NCBI GenBank assembly: GCA_021821045.1
Contig: JAKACW010000037.1
Span: forward strand, 1-39,621
Direction of reading: 5' to 3'
Source: Pseudomonadota bacterium
GTDB taxonomy: Bacteria; Pseudomonadota; Gammaproteobacteria; JAADHS01
DNA length: 39,621 nucleotides
Of the stretch, positions 17,273-30,812 are shown one piece after another. Numbering within the stretch: the stretch's first letter is position 1; each line of letters begins with the position of its first letter. Under the pieces are notes generated by a model, which was not told where the DNA came from, did not search any database, and saw only the letters and a program-made list of their open reading frames with translations. A program made the translations under genes and the position numbers.

Positions 17273-17296
17273 GTGGGAGCGAATCGTTGTTTCGCT
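17273..17296 (+). repeat. REP-like hairpin at the 3' end of the STAS gene
   Basis: GTGGGAGCGAA starts a REP-like unit whose stem is GAGCGAA (17277-17283) with TTCGCTC (about 17289-17295). It overlaps the last bases of the STAS gene, which ends at 17296. With the composite REP beside it, it forms an inverted pair between two convergent genes. Confidence 0.6.
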
Positions 17297-17601
17297 CAAT
17301 CGATCTTGAACTTCTGCCCGAAGTGAGTGATCTCGAGGACTTTCTTGATCCCCGGATTGCAGCGCGTCAGACGAATTTTGGCTTTTTCGCCGCCGGCGAA
17401 TTTCCATAAGTGCAGCAACATGCCCAGGGCGGAGCTGTCCATGTAATCCGCCTCGCCCAGGTCGACCACATAGTTCGCCGCAGGTTTGTTCAAATCGCTG
17501 TAGGCGTGGCGAAAGTCCTGAACCACGTTGAAATCGAAGCGGCCCTTGACCCTGATCGTGACCAGGTTGTCCTTGTCATTGAATTGGCTGGTGATGGGCA
17601 T
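17296..17601 (-). CDS. STAS-domain protein (anti-sigma-factor antagonist-like)
   Basis: 101 residues from the second of two adjacent ATGs (17601), which sits 4 nt from GGAGG; the first, at 17604, is too close. It is a single STAS domain: beta strands, VVDLGEADYMDSSALGMLL with the serine pair that SpoIIAA-type proteins phosphorylate, then KIRLTRCNPGIKKVLE. No other domain is present. The gene begins 11 nt after the chemoreceptor-like gene, so the two form an operon. Family members switch partner kinases or carry regulatory phosphate. Here the likely partner is the receptor or a kinase elsewhere; no anti-sigma kinase is in the window. The gene name cannot be fixed. Confidence 0.88.
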   Translation of the reverse strand: MPITSQFNDKDNLVTIRVKGRFDFNVVQDFRHAYSDLNKPAANYVVDLGEADYMDSSALGMLLHLWKFAGGEKAKIRLTRCNPGIKKVLEITHFGQKFKID

Positions 17602-17615
17602 CATGCCTCCAAATT

Positions 17616-18803
17616 TCAGAACAGTTCCACGTCGGCGGATTCTCGAGCGCCGACTTTGTTGCGCTCGACTTCGTGCTGCTGGCGCAGCGCCGCGATGCGG
17701 GCGCTGATTTCAGACAATTGGTTGTTGCGCGACTTGTCATCGTTTGGCAAGCGCTGCATCTGCCCCAGCAGCAGTTTCAGACCCTTGACGGTGGCGCTGA
17801 GGGTGCCGATTTGTTGCGTTACGATGTCCTCGAATTGCAGCGCTTCCACTGCGGTGTTTACGTTGTCGTGGATGACAACGGCGGTCTGGCGAGTGTTTTC
17901 CAACACGCCGGAAATGGACCTGTTTAGATCCTTGAGTTCAGTCAGCATGTCGTCGGCCTGGCCTTTGGCGCGTATGGCCATATTCATGTCGATGGAGGCC
18001 ATGGCGCCGATGATGGTTTGGACGTCGCCGATGGTGCTGTTGGTAGCCTCGACTTGTTCGCGAATCTGCGAGTTAAGTTCATTGGAGTCGACGGACAGTT
18101 TGCGCACTTCCTGGGCGACCACGGCGAATCCTCGGCCCACGTCGCCTGCGCGCGCCGCTTCGATGGCGGCGTTCAGGGCCAACAGGTTGGTTTGATCGGC
18201 GATGCCTTTGACGTCGCCGATCAGATCGAAAATGACTCGCAACTGGTTGGTCATGTCCTCAGTCTTGTGAGCGCTTTCGATACTTTTGTCGCTGACCTCG
18301 ATCAGCAAACTGGTGAAGTGCTCCATGATTTCGCGGGTTTCCGACGCGATGGACTCGATGGTGAGCTTTTTCTTATGCTCGTCGTGCGCGTCGCGTTCCC
18401 CCGTGAGCTGGCTAAGCAGATCGTGCATCGCCGTCTGTTGTTGTCCCGAGTTCTCGGAAAGCGTGGTGAATGCGCTGTTTAAGCGCGCGGTCGCTTCCCG
18501 CACGTGGCGTTGAATCTGTTCGAGGGTGGCGTGTACCGTCGCTAACTCGCCGGCCATCGACTCCACGATGGTGCCAATGAGCTTTGAATTGGCGTTGGCG
18601 AGATGGTCGGTGTCCGGATGGCGGTCGAAAGGCTTGGGTTGATCCTCCTGACGGCGGTTGCGACGGGGAATCGTCGCCGCGACCAACCACAATATGGAGA
18701 GCACGGTGACAATGACAATGGACAACGGCGCCGCGTCGCGCCATACCATGACGACAATCGCCACGAGGCTTGCGCCGCATGCCGTCCAAACCAGCTTGTG
18801 CAT
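17616..18803 (-). CDS. Chemoreceptor-like protein with a CheZ-like C-terminal motif
   Basis: 395 residues from the ATG at 18803 (AAGGAC about 9 nt upstream; a TTG at 18809 is weaker). Two short membrane helices (about 5-21 and 28-45) leave almost no periplasmic loop, so it lacks an external ligand domain. A long coiled coil leads to a receptor hairpin tip (about 200-235) with [17 protein letters not shown] and [15 protein letters not shown], the CheA/CheW contact region. The trailing helix carries [12 protein letters not shown] (D326, Q330), matching the spacing of the CheZ phosphatase helix (FQDLTGQ, Asp-x3-Gln). That resemblance is mine and untested. It is co-transcribed with the STAS gene. 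It may sense membrane or cytoplasmic state rather than a solute. Confidence 0.85.
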
Positions 18804-18966
18804 AGACAAGTAAGTCCTTCCATCGCCACCTAAATGCTCAAATTTTGTCGGCGTCCTGGGCGATTTGCTTTAGCATTGCAATGATGGGAATTCATGGGGA
18901 ATTGAAGTCGGCCGTGCTTGCGCAGTGTTACTATTGGACGTTCGTTTTGACCACCATGGATTTTAA

Positions 18967-20911: not shown

Positions 20912-22495
20912 TCACTTGCCGCGCCAGTGCACGTGATAGAGATCGAGCCGCCGGTCTTTTAGATTCCGCACCGTGCCGTTGCGCCGCGCTTCAATCAGGG
21001 TCGGCGGATGGATGTCGGCGATGGCGACTGTTTCTACGTTGGGTGTCGTGTCGGCGGCGATGCCGTCGCGGGCGAAGGGAAAATCGCAGGGCGTGAGGAT
21101 GCAGCTTTGCGCGTATTGAATATCCATGTTGGCGACATTAGGCAGGTTGCCGACGTTGCCGGACATCACGACGAAATATTGATTTTCCACCGCCCGGGCC
21201 TGGCAGCAGTAGCGCACCCGAAGATAACTTTGCCGCTCGTCGGTGCAGAACGGCACGAACAAAATGCCGATGCCTTGATCAGCCAAGTGGCGCGCCAACT
21301 CCGGAAACTCCGCGTCGTAACAGATCAGCACGCCGATCGGCCCGCAGTCGGTATCGATAGCGTTGAGCACGCTGCCGCCCTCGATGTTCCACCAATAGAC
21401 CTCGTTGGGCGTGGGATGAATCTTCGGCTGCTCATGTACGCGTCCGTCGCGCAGACAGATGTATGAAATATTCTCGACGCGCCCGCTTTCCACGCGGGTG
21501 GGGTGCGATCCGCCGATGATGTTGATGTTGTAGCGCAACGCCATGTCGCGCAGCGCGTCGCGCAGGCGCGGTGTGTACTTCGTCAACGCCTCGATGGATT
21601 GAGCCGGTGTCAGCCGTTGATCCTCGATGGAGAGCAGTTGCAGCGTGAACAGCTCCGGAAACACCACGAAATCGCCGCGATAATCCGCTACCACGTCGAC
21701 GAAGTACGCCACGTACTGCAAAAACTCGTCGAAAGAATTTACCCGGCGCTGCATATACTGGACTGTCCCGACGCGCACCGTCTCCGGCAAGCGGCCGCTG
21801 TATTTTTTGTTCTTCTCGCCGGGTTTGGTTTCGACGACACTCGGATTCTTCCAAACCAGATGCACGCCATAGCCCAAGGATTCGCGATCAGTGGCGAGGT
21901 AATTGGGAATCACGCCGATAATTTCAAAACCGTTGTGCAATTGGAAGGACAGCACCGGGTCGCGGTGCTTCTTTTGATTCACCGCCTCAACGTAGGCCTG
22001 CGCCGAACCGAACTTCCCGATGCGTTTGGCCAGCGTCGGCAACCGGCCGGCGAAGACGATGCCTTTCAATCCCAGGTTCTGGCATAGTTTTTTGCGCTCG
22101 TTGTATAGGCGCTGGCCCAGCCGGTAGCCCCGATATTCCGGGTCGACGCACACCTCCATGCCGTACAGCCACTCGCCTTCGGGATCGTGGCGCGAAGCAT
22201 AGCCCATGCCGGTGATCTCGGCCCAGGTGTGCGGTTTCAATGCGATGTCGCCGCCGATGCGAAAGGTCGCGCAGTAGCCGACGACTTTATCATCCATAGT
22301 CGCCACGAATTGGCCGTCGGGAAAATTGTTGATTTGGCCATTGATCAGACCCTCGGGATAACCGCGCATGCCGGTGCCCTCATAAGCCCGCGTGGTGAGG
22401 TCGGCGATGGCTGTTACATCGGCAAGCGTCGCATTACGGACGCTGAGACGGCTGGTTGGATTCTTGAGGCCGGTGCGTGTGGTTTGTGTCGTCAC
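20912..22495 (-). CDS. GNAT acetyltransferase-carbon/nitrogen hydrolase fusion
   Basis: 527 residues from the GTG at 22495, chosen because AAAGGA lies about 8 nt upstream; a longer frame reaches 22531 without a ribosome binding site. Residues to about 200 form a GNAT acyltransferase (YGMEVCVDPEYRGYRLGQRLY is the acyl-CoA-binding region). Residues from about 240 form a nitrilase-superfamily amidase with its Glu-Lys-Cys triad: Glu in VVFPELF, Lys in QPKIHPTPNE, Cys in GVLICYDAEFPE. Such fusions are known in many bacteria, but I know of no firm substrate. The pairing suggests acylation and deamidation of the same small molecule. No membrane segments. Upstream lies the porin gene, about 100 nt away in the same direction. 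Confidence 0.9.
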   Translation of the reverse strand: MTTQTTRTGLKNPTSRLSVRNATLADVTAIADLTTRAYEGTGMRGYPEGLINGQINNFPDGQFVATMDDKVVGYCATFRIGGDIALKPHTWAEITGMGYASRHDPEGEWLYGMEVCVDPEYRGYRLGQRLYNERKKLCQNLGLKGIVFAGRLPTLAKRIGKFGSAQAYVEAVNQKKHRDPVLSFQLHNGFEIIGVIPNYLATDRESLGYGVHLVWKNPSVVETKPGEKNKKYSGRLPETVRVGTVQYMQRRVNSFDEFLQYVAYFVDVVADYRGDFVVFPELFTLQLLSIEDQRLTPAQSIEALTKYTPRLRDALRDMALRYNINIIGGSHPTRVESGRVENISYICLRDGRVHEQPKIHPTPNEVYWWNIEGGSVLNAIDTDCGPIGVLICYDAEFPELARHLADQGIGILFVPFCTDERQSYLRVRYCCQARAVENQYFVVMSGNVGNLPNVANMDIQYAQSCILTPCDFPFARDGIAADTTPNVETVAIADIHPPTLIEARRNGTVRNLKDRRLDLYHVHWRGK

Positions 22496-22596
22496 AATGC
22501 ATCCTTTCGGTGTGCAGAAACACGTGCGCACACCATATCACGAAGGCCGAATTTCGTGGGAGGCACACGGATCGCTAGCCGTAGGAGCGATTCCTA

Positions 22597-29183: not shown

Positions 29184-29216
29184 CCAAACCGCCGTGATTC
29201 AGAAAAGTAGGTGAGT

Positions 29217-30812
29217 ATGTCGTCTGAATTTTTCGGGAATCTAACCATCGCGCGCCGGATGCAAGTCGCCGGCGCGGCGATCTTTGCCTTGGTGACCGCC
29301 ATGGTGTGGTTCAACTGGAGCACGTTCCAGAAGGTGAGCTACAGCAATGAGGTGGCGATTCAGCTACAAGCCGGATCGGCCCACCTGCAGCTCATGCTGC
29401 GTGGCCTCAATGAGTCGGCGGTTACCCAAGGAGCCAGCGGCTCGGTGAAGAGCGCAGAAGACGGCATCGTCCGGTTCGAGCAGGTTTATACCGAGTTGGC
29501 CGCGCTCACGAAGAACGATCCGTCGGTCCACGACTTTCTCGTCGGCGAATGGCGCGACCGGTGGCAAGACCTGCGGTCGCGGGTGGAACAGTTTCTGGAT
29601 ACAAGCGAAGAAGTCGATTTGAACGACATCAAGCAAATGGTCGAGGTCGGCAAGCTCGTCGCCGGCGCGGGCGCGGTGGCGGACGAGATGGCGGAGTTCG
29701 CGCAGAAAACGCGAGACGGCGCCATTGCTAAGGAAAAGGCCGCCGCCACCCGCATGCTCACCGGCGCCGGGGGGATCTTTGTGGTTATCGTCGTGGCGTT
29801 TGTCTTGGTGACGCGCAGCGTGACCGGCCCCTTGCACCGGTTGGAATCGTTTATTCTCGCGGTGGAGCAGCGTTCGGATCTCACTCTGCGTTCGGAATTG
29901 ACGGGAGACAATGAATTGGGCCGCATGGGCCGCGCGCTGAACAGCATGCTCGGAAAATTTCAGCACATCTTGCGCGACGTGTCGCAAGCGATGACCCAGT
30001 TGAACGGCGAAACCGAGCGTTTGGGTCACGTATCGGAAACCACGTCCAAGGGCGCCGGCGAGCAGCAAAAGTCCACGATTCAACTGGCGTCGGCCATGCA
30101 CGAACTGGTCGAGACGGTCGGGCACATTGCCAACAACGTCTCGCGTTCCGCCCAGGACGCCGAACAGGCCAGAACGCGCGCCGATGAAGGGCGAACCGCC
30201 ATTACTCGCACCATGGGCAGTATCGAACAGTTGGTTGAGGCCGTGCAGCATTCCTCGGACGTGACCCGCGATCTCGATGCCAAGGCTGCCAGCATCGGCA
30301 AAGTGTTGGATGTCATTCGCGCCATCGCCGAGCAAACGAATCTGCTTGCCTTGAACGCGGCCATCGAAGCGGCACGCGCCGGCGAGCAGGGTCGCGGCTT
30401 TGCAGTCGTCGCCGACGAGGTTCGCACGCTGGCCACGCGAACCCAGGAGTCGACCAAAGAAATTCAGGGTATTATTTCGCAGTTGCAGACCGGCGCCGGT
30501 ACGGCTGTTCAAGCCATGGAGCGCGGCAGATCCCAGAGCGCAGGCACGATCGATGAGGCGGCCAAGGCCATGACCGCCATGGAGTCCGCGGCAGCGGCGG
30601 TGGGCGTCATCGCCGAGTCCATTACTCAAATCGCAGCCGCAACCGAAGAACAAAGCGCAACGGCCGAGGAGATCAACCGCAACGTGGTGACGATCAACGA
30701 AGTGGCCGAGCATACGGCGTCGTGCGCCAACGACTCCGCCGAAGTGAGCACGACGATTGACGCACTGGCGCGGCGGCTCGACGAAGCCGTGAAAACATTT
30801 AAAGTCGGTTAG
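29217..30812 (+). CDS. Methyl-accepting chemotaxis protein
   Basis: 531 residues from the ATG at 29217 (AGGTGAG just before; a GTG two codons upstream is possible). First membrane helix about 14-34, a helical periplasmic domain of about 145 residues, second helix about 178-200, HAMP ([13 protein letters not shown]...[14 protein letters not shown]), then a receptor signalling domain. The hairpin tip is complete: [38 protein letters not shown], flanked by Glu/Gln-rich methylation helices. There is no C-terminal CheR-binding pentapeptide. It should sense a periplasmic ligand and control CheA. It follows the exported rhodanese-like gene, which might present the ligand. REP arrays begin right after the stop. 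Confidence 0.92.

Follow-up and report, generated by a model that had tools for sequence, protein, structure and literature searches.

Does a chemoreceptor that carries a CheZ-like helix act as a phosphatase, and does the STAS protein encoded beside it belong to the same signaling unit? The question is raised by a gene of a Pseudomonadota bacterium (Gammaproteobacteria; JAADHS01; assembly GCA_021821045.1). The window, i.e., the whole stretch of DNA that was analysed, is the contig JAKACW010000037.1 with a length of 39,621 nt. An earlier note on this DNA had described a receptor, here P0001, that has two short membrane helices, lacks a ligand domain and carries an Asp-x3-Gln segment as in CheZ, and had proposed a membrane sensor joined to a phosphatase-like function and a STAS switch. 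The features under discussion are:

17296..17604, minus strand: STAS anti-sigma-factor-antagonist-like protein, 102 aa, with DSSALG (PF01740 1.1e-11; PF13466; TIGR00377 8.2e-15)
17616..18803, minus strand: McpA-like chemoreceptor gene, 395 aa (MCPsignal PF00015 3.7e-24; hairpin profile A8 4.0e-61, the window row being one of the 15 seeds of this profile)
18672..18800, minus strand: two short membrane helices, residues 2-21 and 25-44 (hydrophobic segments; AlphaFold2 helices at 2-21 and 25-44, with low confidence there)
18468..18494, minus strand: N-helix residues A104, L108 and F112 (conserved in 89%, 89% and 94% of 88 receptors)
18093..18203, minus strand: hairpin tip, residues 201-237 (most columns at least 0.9 conserved)
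17808..17840, minus strand: CheZ-like helix segment of 11 residues, 322-332 (translation of the reading frame, family alignment)
17826..17828, minus strand: codon of Asp326, the motif equivalent of CheZ D143 (90/90 receptors)
17814..17816, minus strand: codon of Gln330, the motif equivalent of CheZ Q147 (89/90 receptors)
17619..17642, minus strand: C-terminal tail ESADVELF, residues 388-395 ([VI]xLF end in 83/89; F395 in 99% and L394 in 94% of 88 receptors)

The receptor, its STAS neighbour and their family

The anatomy given in the earlier note holds. Hydrophobic segments are located near residues 2-21 and 25-44, a ligand domain is absent, and MCPsignal is the sole Pfam domain of P0001 above its own cut-off. 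An alternative in-frame TTG start at 18809 would yield a receptor of 397 aa. The hairpin tip is, presumably, the contact region for CheA and CheW. By our estimate A104, L108 and F112 are placed roughly opposite the CheZ-like motif within the receptor hairpin. The AlphaFold2 model, calculated as a monomer, has a pTM of 0.34 and is too poor for measuring the exposure of Asp and Gln. Structure comparison of this poor model returned the receptor hairpin fold (2ch7_B, Z 14.2, rmsd 5.0, 293 residues aligned); no CheZ chain was among its best 50 matches, a result which excludes nothing.

The STAS gene lies 11 nt downstream of the receptor as described, with a gap at 17605-17615 between the two frames, and strand and spacing suggest that both genes are co-transcribed. 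The STAS protein scores 54.6 bits with TIGR00377 (cut-off 53.45), and the DSSALG serine site is present in 6/6 aligned STAS copies. The pairing extends to other genomes, for which a survey had been suggested: a same-strand STAS gene is found within 600 bp downstream at 46 of 89 McpA-like loci.

Judged by its sequence, the window receptor belongs to the known McpA-like group of F7 chemosensory systems. Both this family and STAS as its frequent neighbour had been missed. P0001 clades with the Vibrio F7-type cluster receptors L049 and L051, and its likeness to VCA1088 and PA0180 was taken from the descriptions of these proteins. A whole-protein search of 56 relatives identified about a dozen receptors of approximately 400 residues that share the motif position, the motif Phe being 109 residues past the Glu of the hairpin tip. 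With the McpA-like F7 receptors VCA1088, PA0180 (McpA, CttP) and SO_2117, P0001 shares the size of about 400 aa, a short membrane region and a conserved C-terminal extension which lacks the CheR pentapeptide and has Val at its second position. The tail of P0001 ends in ADVELF; absence of the pentapeptide and Val or Ile at its second position are common to 83 of the 89 McpA-like receptors. According to excerpts of a published study, the aromatic residue of the CheR-binding pentapeptide is replaced by Val in McpA, the C-terminus of McpA shows striking conservation and has a role called "important yet unclear", the contribution of McpA to the ancestral F7 system is likewise called unclear, and F7 arrays are unaffected by McpA deletion (PMC7184735).

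In relatives the gene order is cheB, McpA-like gene, STAS, receiver-SpoIIE (L020, L023 and the Vibrio loci L049, L051); a domain search of gene order covered L020, and the neighbours in L023, L049 and L051 were recognised from sequence signatures. The McpA-like gene is thus adjacent to the F7 cluster in these four loci, but not in the host genome, in which an F7-like cluster is located on contig C128. It comprises genes for a globin-PAS-HAMP receptor, CheD (ending in GEVDLF), CheB, STAS and a receiver-SpoIIE-HATPase protein. Between CheB and STAS on C128 there is no McpA-like gene; hence the McpA-like gene of the window and its second STAS copy stand apart from the system to which they presumably belong. 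Whereas in relatives the receptor gene sits between cheB and the STAS/serine-phosphatase pair, the P0001-STAS pair is away from the C128 cluster, which retains its own STAS and receiver-SpoIIE genes. The receptor on C128 (L158:13949-16855, minus strand) is Aer2-like, with an N-terminal globin domain followed by PAS, HAMP and MCP domains.

Conservation of the motif and comparison with CheZ

Profile A8 was built from hairpin columns alone; the motif was left out so that sequences were not picked by it. A search of 369 genomes of the host's class returned 90 McpA-like receptors in 81 genomes, about 80 of them outside the 15 seed rows, and all 90 sequences were read. The motif Asp is kept in 90/90 and the Gln in 89/90, at 111 and 115 residues after the Glu of the hairpin tip. 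In the one exception, L242, Arg stands in place of Gln and the hairpin tip is damaged as well (EAAG). D...Q is retained in L253, from which the tail has been lost. Column conservation, calculated from 88 aligned receptors, is 1.0 for the motif Asp; the motif Gln, the Gln preceding it and the terminal Phe are at 0.99. Counts of tails and STAS neighbours refer to 89 receptors processed by script. Apart from the hairpin region and positions 269 and 272, columns conserved to at least 0.9 are those of the motif (including 322, 323 and 324), of the tail (390, 394, 395) and of F112 and Q122 in the N-helix. The family signature is LQFxDxxxQ at a fixed distance from the tip, with the tail consensus (D/E)(V/I)(E/D)LF. 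No other receptor of the host genome among those listed by the script has the motif at this place. Conservation of Asp and Gln is more than expected by chance.

Wide occurrence of the motif in receptors had been named as an argument against a phosphatase-like function. A tree of 132 receptors calculated from hairpin columns without the motif by the quick FastTree method gives a different picture: 26 of the 132 bear the motif and 106 do not, and 25 of the 26 are in one clade (support 98). This clade has two branches, 16 McpA-like receptors and nine receptors with LQFQDRxSQ, here termed clade B. L162 bears the motif, yet is positioned outside the clade on a long branch. Clade B consists of L030, L040, L041, L055, L056, L063, L070, L077 and L152, with the variants FQFQDRTSQ in L152 and LQFQDRVNQ in L077. 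Its genes often precede a CheY gene, a divergent STAS gene and CheA, and its tails end mostly in FF.

The segment in P0001 was correctly likened to CheZ. F-x-D-(I/L)-x-x-Q-x-I matches DFQDLTGQII/VI of the host's own CheZ and of CheZ in 1kmi, the sole solved CheZ matched; 20 aligned CheZ sequences mostly read AQDFQDLTGQ(I/V)I. P0001 has D-x-x-x-Q with an aromatic residue at -2, by which CheZ is recognised. CheZ (PF04344; 1kmi) and the receptors have in common the aromatic at -2, the Asp and the Gln at +4, but the aliphatic residue at +1 is absent from clade B. The AQ pair and the invariant Gly ahead of the catalytic Gln of CheZ are not kept; in the receptors the position before the Gln is mostly R, T, S, G or N. 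The CheY-binding tail helix of CheZ, DDLLxSLGF (DDLLSSLGF), is absent from the receptors, whose tail is a different one, (D/E)(V/I)(E/D)LF (DVELF). CheZ forms a hairpin of its own, P0001 a receptor hairpin.

Like CheZ, McpA-like receptors show a change of the hydrophobic face along the helix, catalytic or equivalent residues opposite the core and a conserved tail ending in Phe. At the motif the hydrophobic face turns by about 145-150 degrees, as it does in CheZ. The direction of the hydrophobic moment goes from 154 to 359 degrees in McpA-like receptors, from 170 to 37 in clade B, from 164 to 14 in CheZ and from 166 to 56 in the stand-alone proteins treated below. Asp and Gln are 106-176 degrees away from the downstream hydrophobic face. 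In 38 ordinary receptors, 0 of 6000 combinations of set and centre had a flip of at least 140 degrees flanked on either side by strong moments. This measure was devised after the helix profile had been seen, i.e., it was not planned beforehand, and it replaced a correlation measure; CheZ flips elsewhere too, near its own hairpin turn. Burial in the coiled coil would have spoken against a catalytic role; the helix register instead turns Asp and Gln towards the polar face, where they are probably exposed. The correlation of hydrophobic profiles with CheZ was discarded as evidence: at the motif register it is 0.46-0.61 for McpA-like receptors, about equal to the best slid register when the motif columns are omitted.

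A search of the C-terminus against CheZ profiles had been proposed as a check, and it lent no support to membership in the CheZ family. The Pfam CheZ model has no match in P0001 at E≤10. Pfam CheZ scores of 20-24 bits on receptors are below the cut-off and were not counted as evidence because they also occur away from the motif. A second receptor in the window, of the HAMP type (29211-30812, plus strand), scores 20.4 bits with the Pfam CheZ model; the match is to its coiled coil and not near any such DxxxQ site. Profile-profile comparison of the C-terminus with CheZ gave a score of 30.6 (45% probability), but 30.7 was attained by one of 30 control sets made from ordinary receptor C-termini, although this set aligned to another part of CheZ; the score was not taken as proof of common descent. 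The full-length receptor scored 43.1, a value without a matched control, and clade B alone had a probability of 8%. Column-permuted alignments never exceeded 18.5 in 100 trials, which is a weak control because permuting destroys the helix periodicity. A candidate match of the N-helix to CheZ (P-x5-L-x6-T-E-x-A) had P 0.096, was estimated to be about 11 residues off in the hairpin, and was rejected. Membership of the receptor in the CheZ family is not supported by these comparisons. Because the profile score is at the level of the coiled-coil background, Pfam has no match and the N-helix is unmatched, P0001 may function in the manner of CheZ and yet stand outside its family.

Soluble motif proteins and CheD

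The motif is not confined to receptors. Profile A5, built on the motif, was searched in 56 genomes. Ranked below the receptors were small proteins, about 140-230 residues long, which contain QFxDxxxQ and have a Phe at or near the end of the tail; eight of them were read. In six aligned stand-alone proteins the invariant columns are Q-F-x-D-x-x-x-Q and the tail Phe. They are soluble and have no Pfam family above its cut-off. The set comprises L169:2987-3670 (minus strand; host genome, contig C95), L160, L161, L163, L164, L165, L167 and L168. Three of the eight (L164, L165, L167) are 0.8-1.3 kb from CheD within che clusters, whose CheR and CheB were recognised by reading the sequences. L160 resembles the C-terminus of McpA minus the receptor hairpin. 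A5 picks CheZ itself weakly in three of 21 CheZ-bearing genomes (E 0.018, 0.21 and 0.37), too weak to count by itself.

CheD has the same tail. In 15 of 21 CheD sequences (L170-L191) the end is (D/E)(V/I)(E/D)LF, followed in three of the 15 by one to five extra residues; a further two have FF or FFD as their last residues. The tail-bearing CheD loci are L170-L184 and, on C128, L158:12241-13089. The same tail in CheD and in McpA-like receptors suggests a shared binding partner. At a threshold of E≤1e-3, A5 matches are present in 13 of the 16 CheD-bearing genomes and in one of 40 others (p=3.9e-9, a value which overstates the evidence because the genomes share descent); the association may in part be due to descent. 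Among the 21 genomes with CheZ, the motif is found in 12/13 with CheD and in 0/8 without. Of 22 CheD genes, 10 have a motif protein no more than 12 kb away along the contig and one has a CheZ, about 12 kb away, by a comparison made by hand in which fragmented assemblies lower the counts. The threshold left out a match in G001 (E 0.0121), although it is a stand-alone protein adjoining CheD. A match in G004 (E 0.00168, above 1e-3) is a membrane protease as read from its sequence and was set aside.

A putative phosphatase in the receptor array

In CheZ, Gln places the attacking water and Asp orients the receiver active site. On balance we lean, by a modest degree, towards the view that the McpA-like receptor is an array-anchored, CheZ-like phosphatase of response regulators. 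The receptor would sit in the chemosensory array, as the intact tip and the published relatives indicate, and its membrane-proximal C-terminal helix would do what the active-site helix does in CheZ. Capture of a phosphorylated receiver domain would fall to the tail or else to this helix; Gln330 would then place the attacking water and Asp326 orient the receiver active site, and the phosphate would be lost. The most likely substrate would be a response regulator from within this CheZ-less system, either the F7 CheY or the receiver-SpoIIE-kinase partner of the STAS protein. Both are preferred because their systems do not encode a CheZ themselves: as far as the excerpts go, F7 systems have cheY and no cheZ (PMC7184735; PMC11940527), and in stage 1 and 2 organisms cheZ is in the F6 cluster only (PMC7184735). 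The receptor-STAS pair would set the duration of the output, i.e., the STAS partner-switch control of a sigma factor.

Several findings carry this reading: the near-invariance of Asp and Gln, the confinement of the motif to essentially one clade of receptors, the flip of the hydrophobic face, the tail, the stand-alone proteins, the tracking of CheD by the motif and the CheZ-less systems. The lack of a Pfam CheZ match, the profile score at background level, the missing Gly and AQ pair and the unmatched N-helix speak against it. Other data, too, go against a phosphatase. The host genome already has its own canonical CheZ, encoded on C128 (251 bits). In Shewanella, McpA was found with the F6 kinase and array, not with F7, and swimming was the same after its loss (PMC9855816). 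The F6 CheY may also be a substrate because Shewanella McpA is part of F6 arrays.

Alternatively, LQFxDxxxQ might be a site of adaptation or docking, its Gln residues being substrates of CheD, CheB and CheR, or the segment being bound by CheD. The motif does track CheD (13/16 against 1/40 genomes), CheD deamidates Gln residues of receptors (PMC11940527), and the CheD proteins of these systems have the same tail in 15 of 21 sequences read. Yet the Asp, for which a modification site has no need, is as invariant as the Gln, and soluble proteins which are not receptors keep motif and tail. Furthermore, the segment is unlike the consensus for receptor methylation, small-x-x-Glu/Gln-Glu/Gln. We consider a role in adaptation or docking unlikely. 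A structural role, in which the motif is a switch of coiled-coil register or a hinge near the membrane with Phe pointing into the core and Asp and Gln capping the change of face, agrees with the flip that is in fact observed at the motif. A hinge, however, rarely requires five fixed identities over such divergence (other receptors are 19-32% identical to P0001), CheZ flips likewise at its catalytic site, and the signature recurs in soluble proteins; a structural function is, in our opinion, quite improbable. Finally, P0001 could be an ordinary receptor with a seven-residue match to CheZ by chance and a conservation that reflects family descent. Coiled coils do yield spurious CheZ scores, as at 29211-30812, but Asp and Gln are kept in 90/90 and 89/90 receptors while neighbouring positions vary freely. 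This possibility is already disfavoured, and we regard it as very remote.

A wider version of the phosphatase reading is tentative, and we would sooner doubt than endorse it: McpA-like receptors, clade B and the stand-alone QFxDxxxQ proteins would constitute unrecognised CheZ-like phosphatases for CheZ-less systems, with the tail as a docking element common with CheD, and CheZ may derive from such a receptor helix or be its source. The bifunctional kinase-phosphatase of Rhodobacter is reportedly CheA3. It resembles the arrangement proposed here in that a phosphatase resides inside another chemotaxis protein, a kinase and not a receptor, as described in an excerpt (PMC2924250). From partial texts, a STAS protein encoded with a chemosensory system is part of the CrsA/CrsR partner switch (PMC9855816), to which the receiver-SpoIIE-HATPase protein on C128 would correspond in the host, and HsbA/HsbR is the same kind of coupling (PMC6482189). 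In the open-licence literature searched, a CheZ-like site in McpA-like receptors was not found. If the proposal is true, a receptor-borne phosphatase would answer two questions together, the role of the McpA C-terminus and the presence of an F7 CheY without CheZ. A receptor would then end a signal as well as start one, and there would be a direct link from chemosensory arrays to the control of sigma factors by STAS partner switches. The open role of McpA becomes testable through two residues.

Elsewhere in the window, at 20912-22531 on the minus strand, a GNAT acetyltransferase domain is fused to a carbon-nitrogen hydrolase domain.
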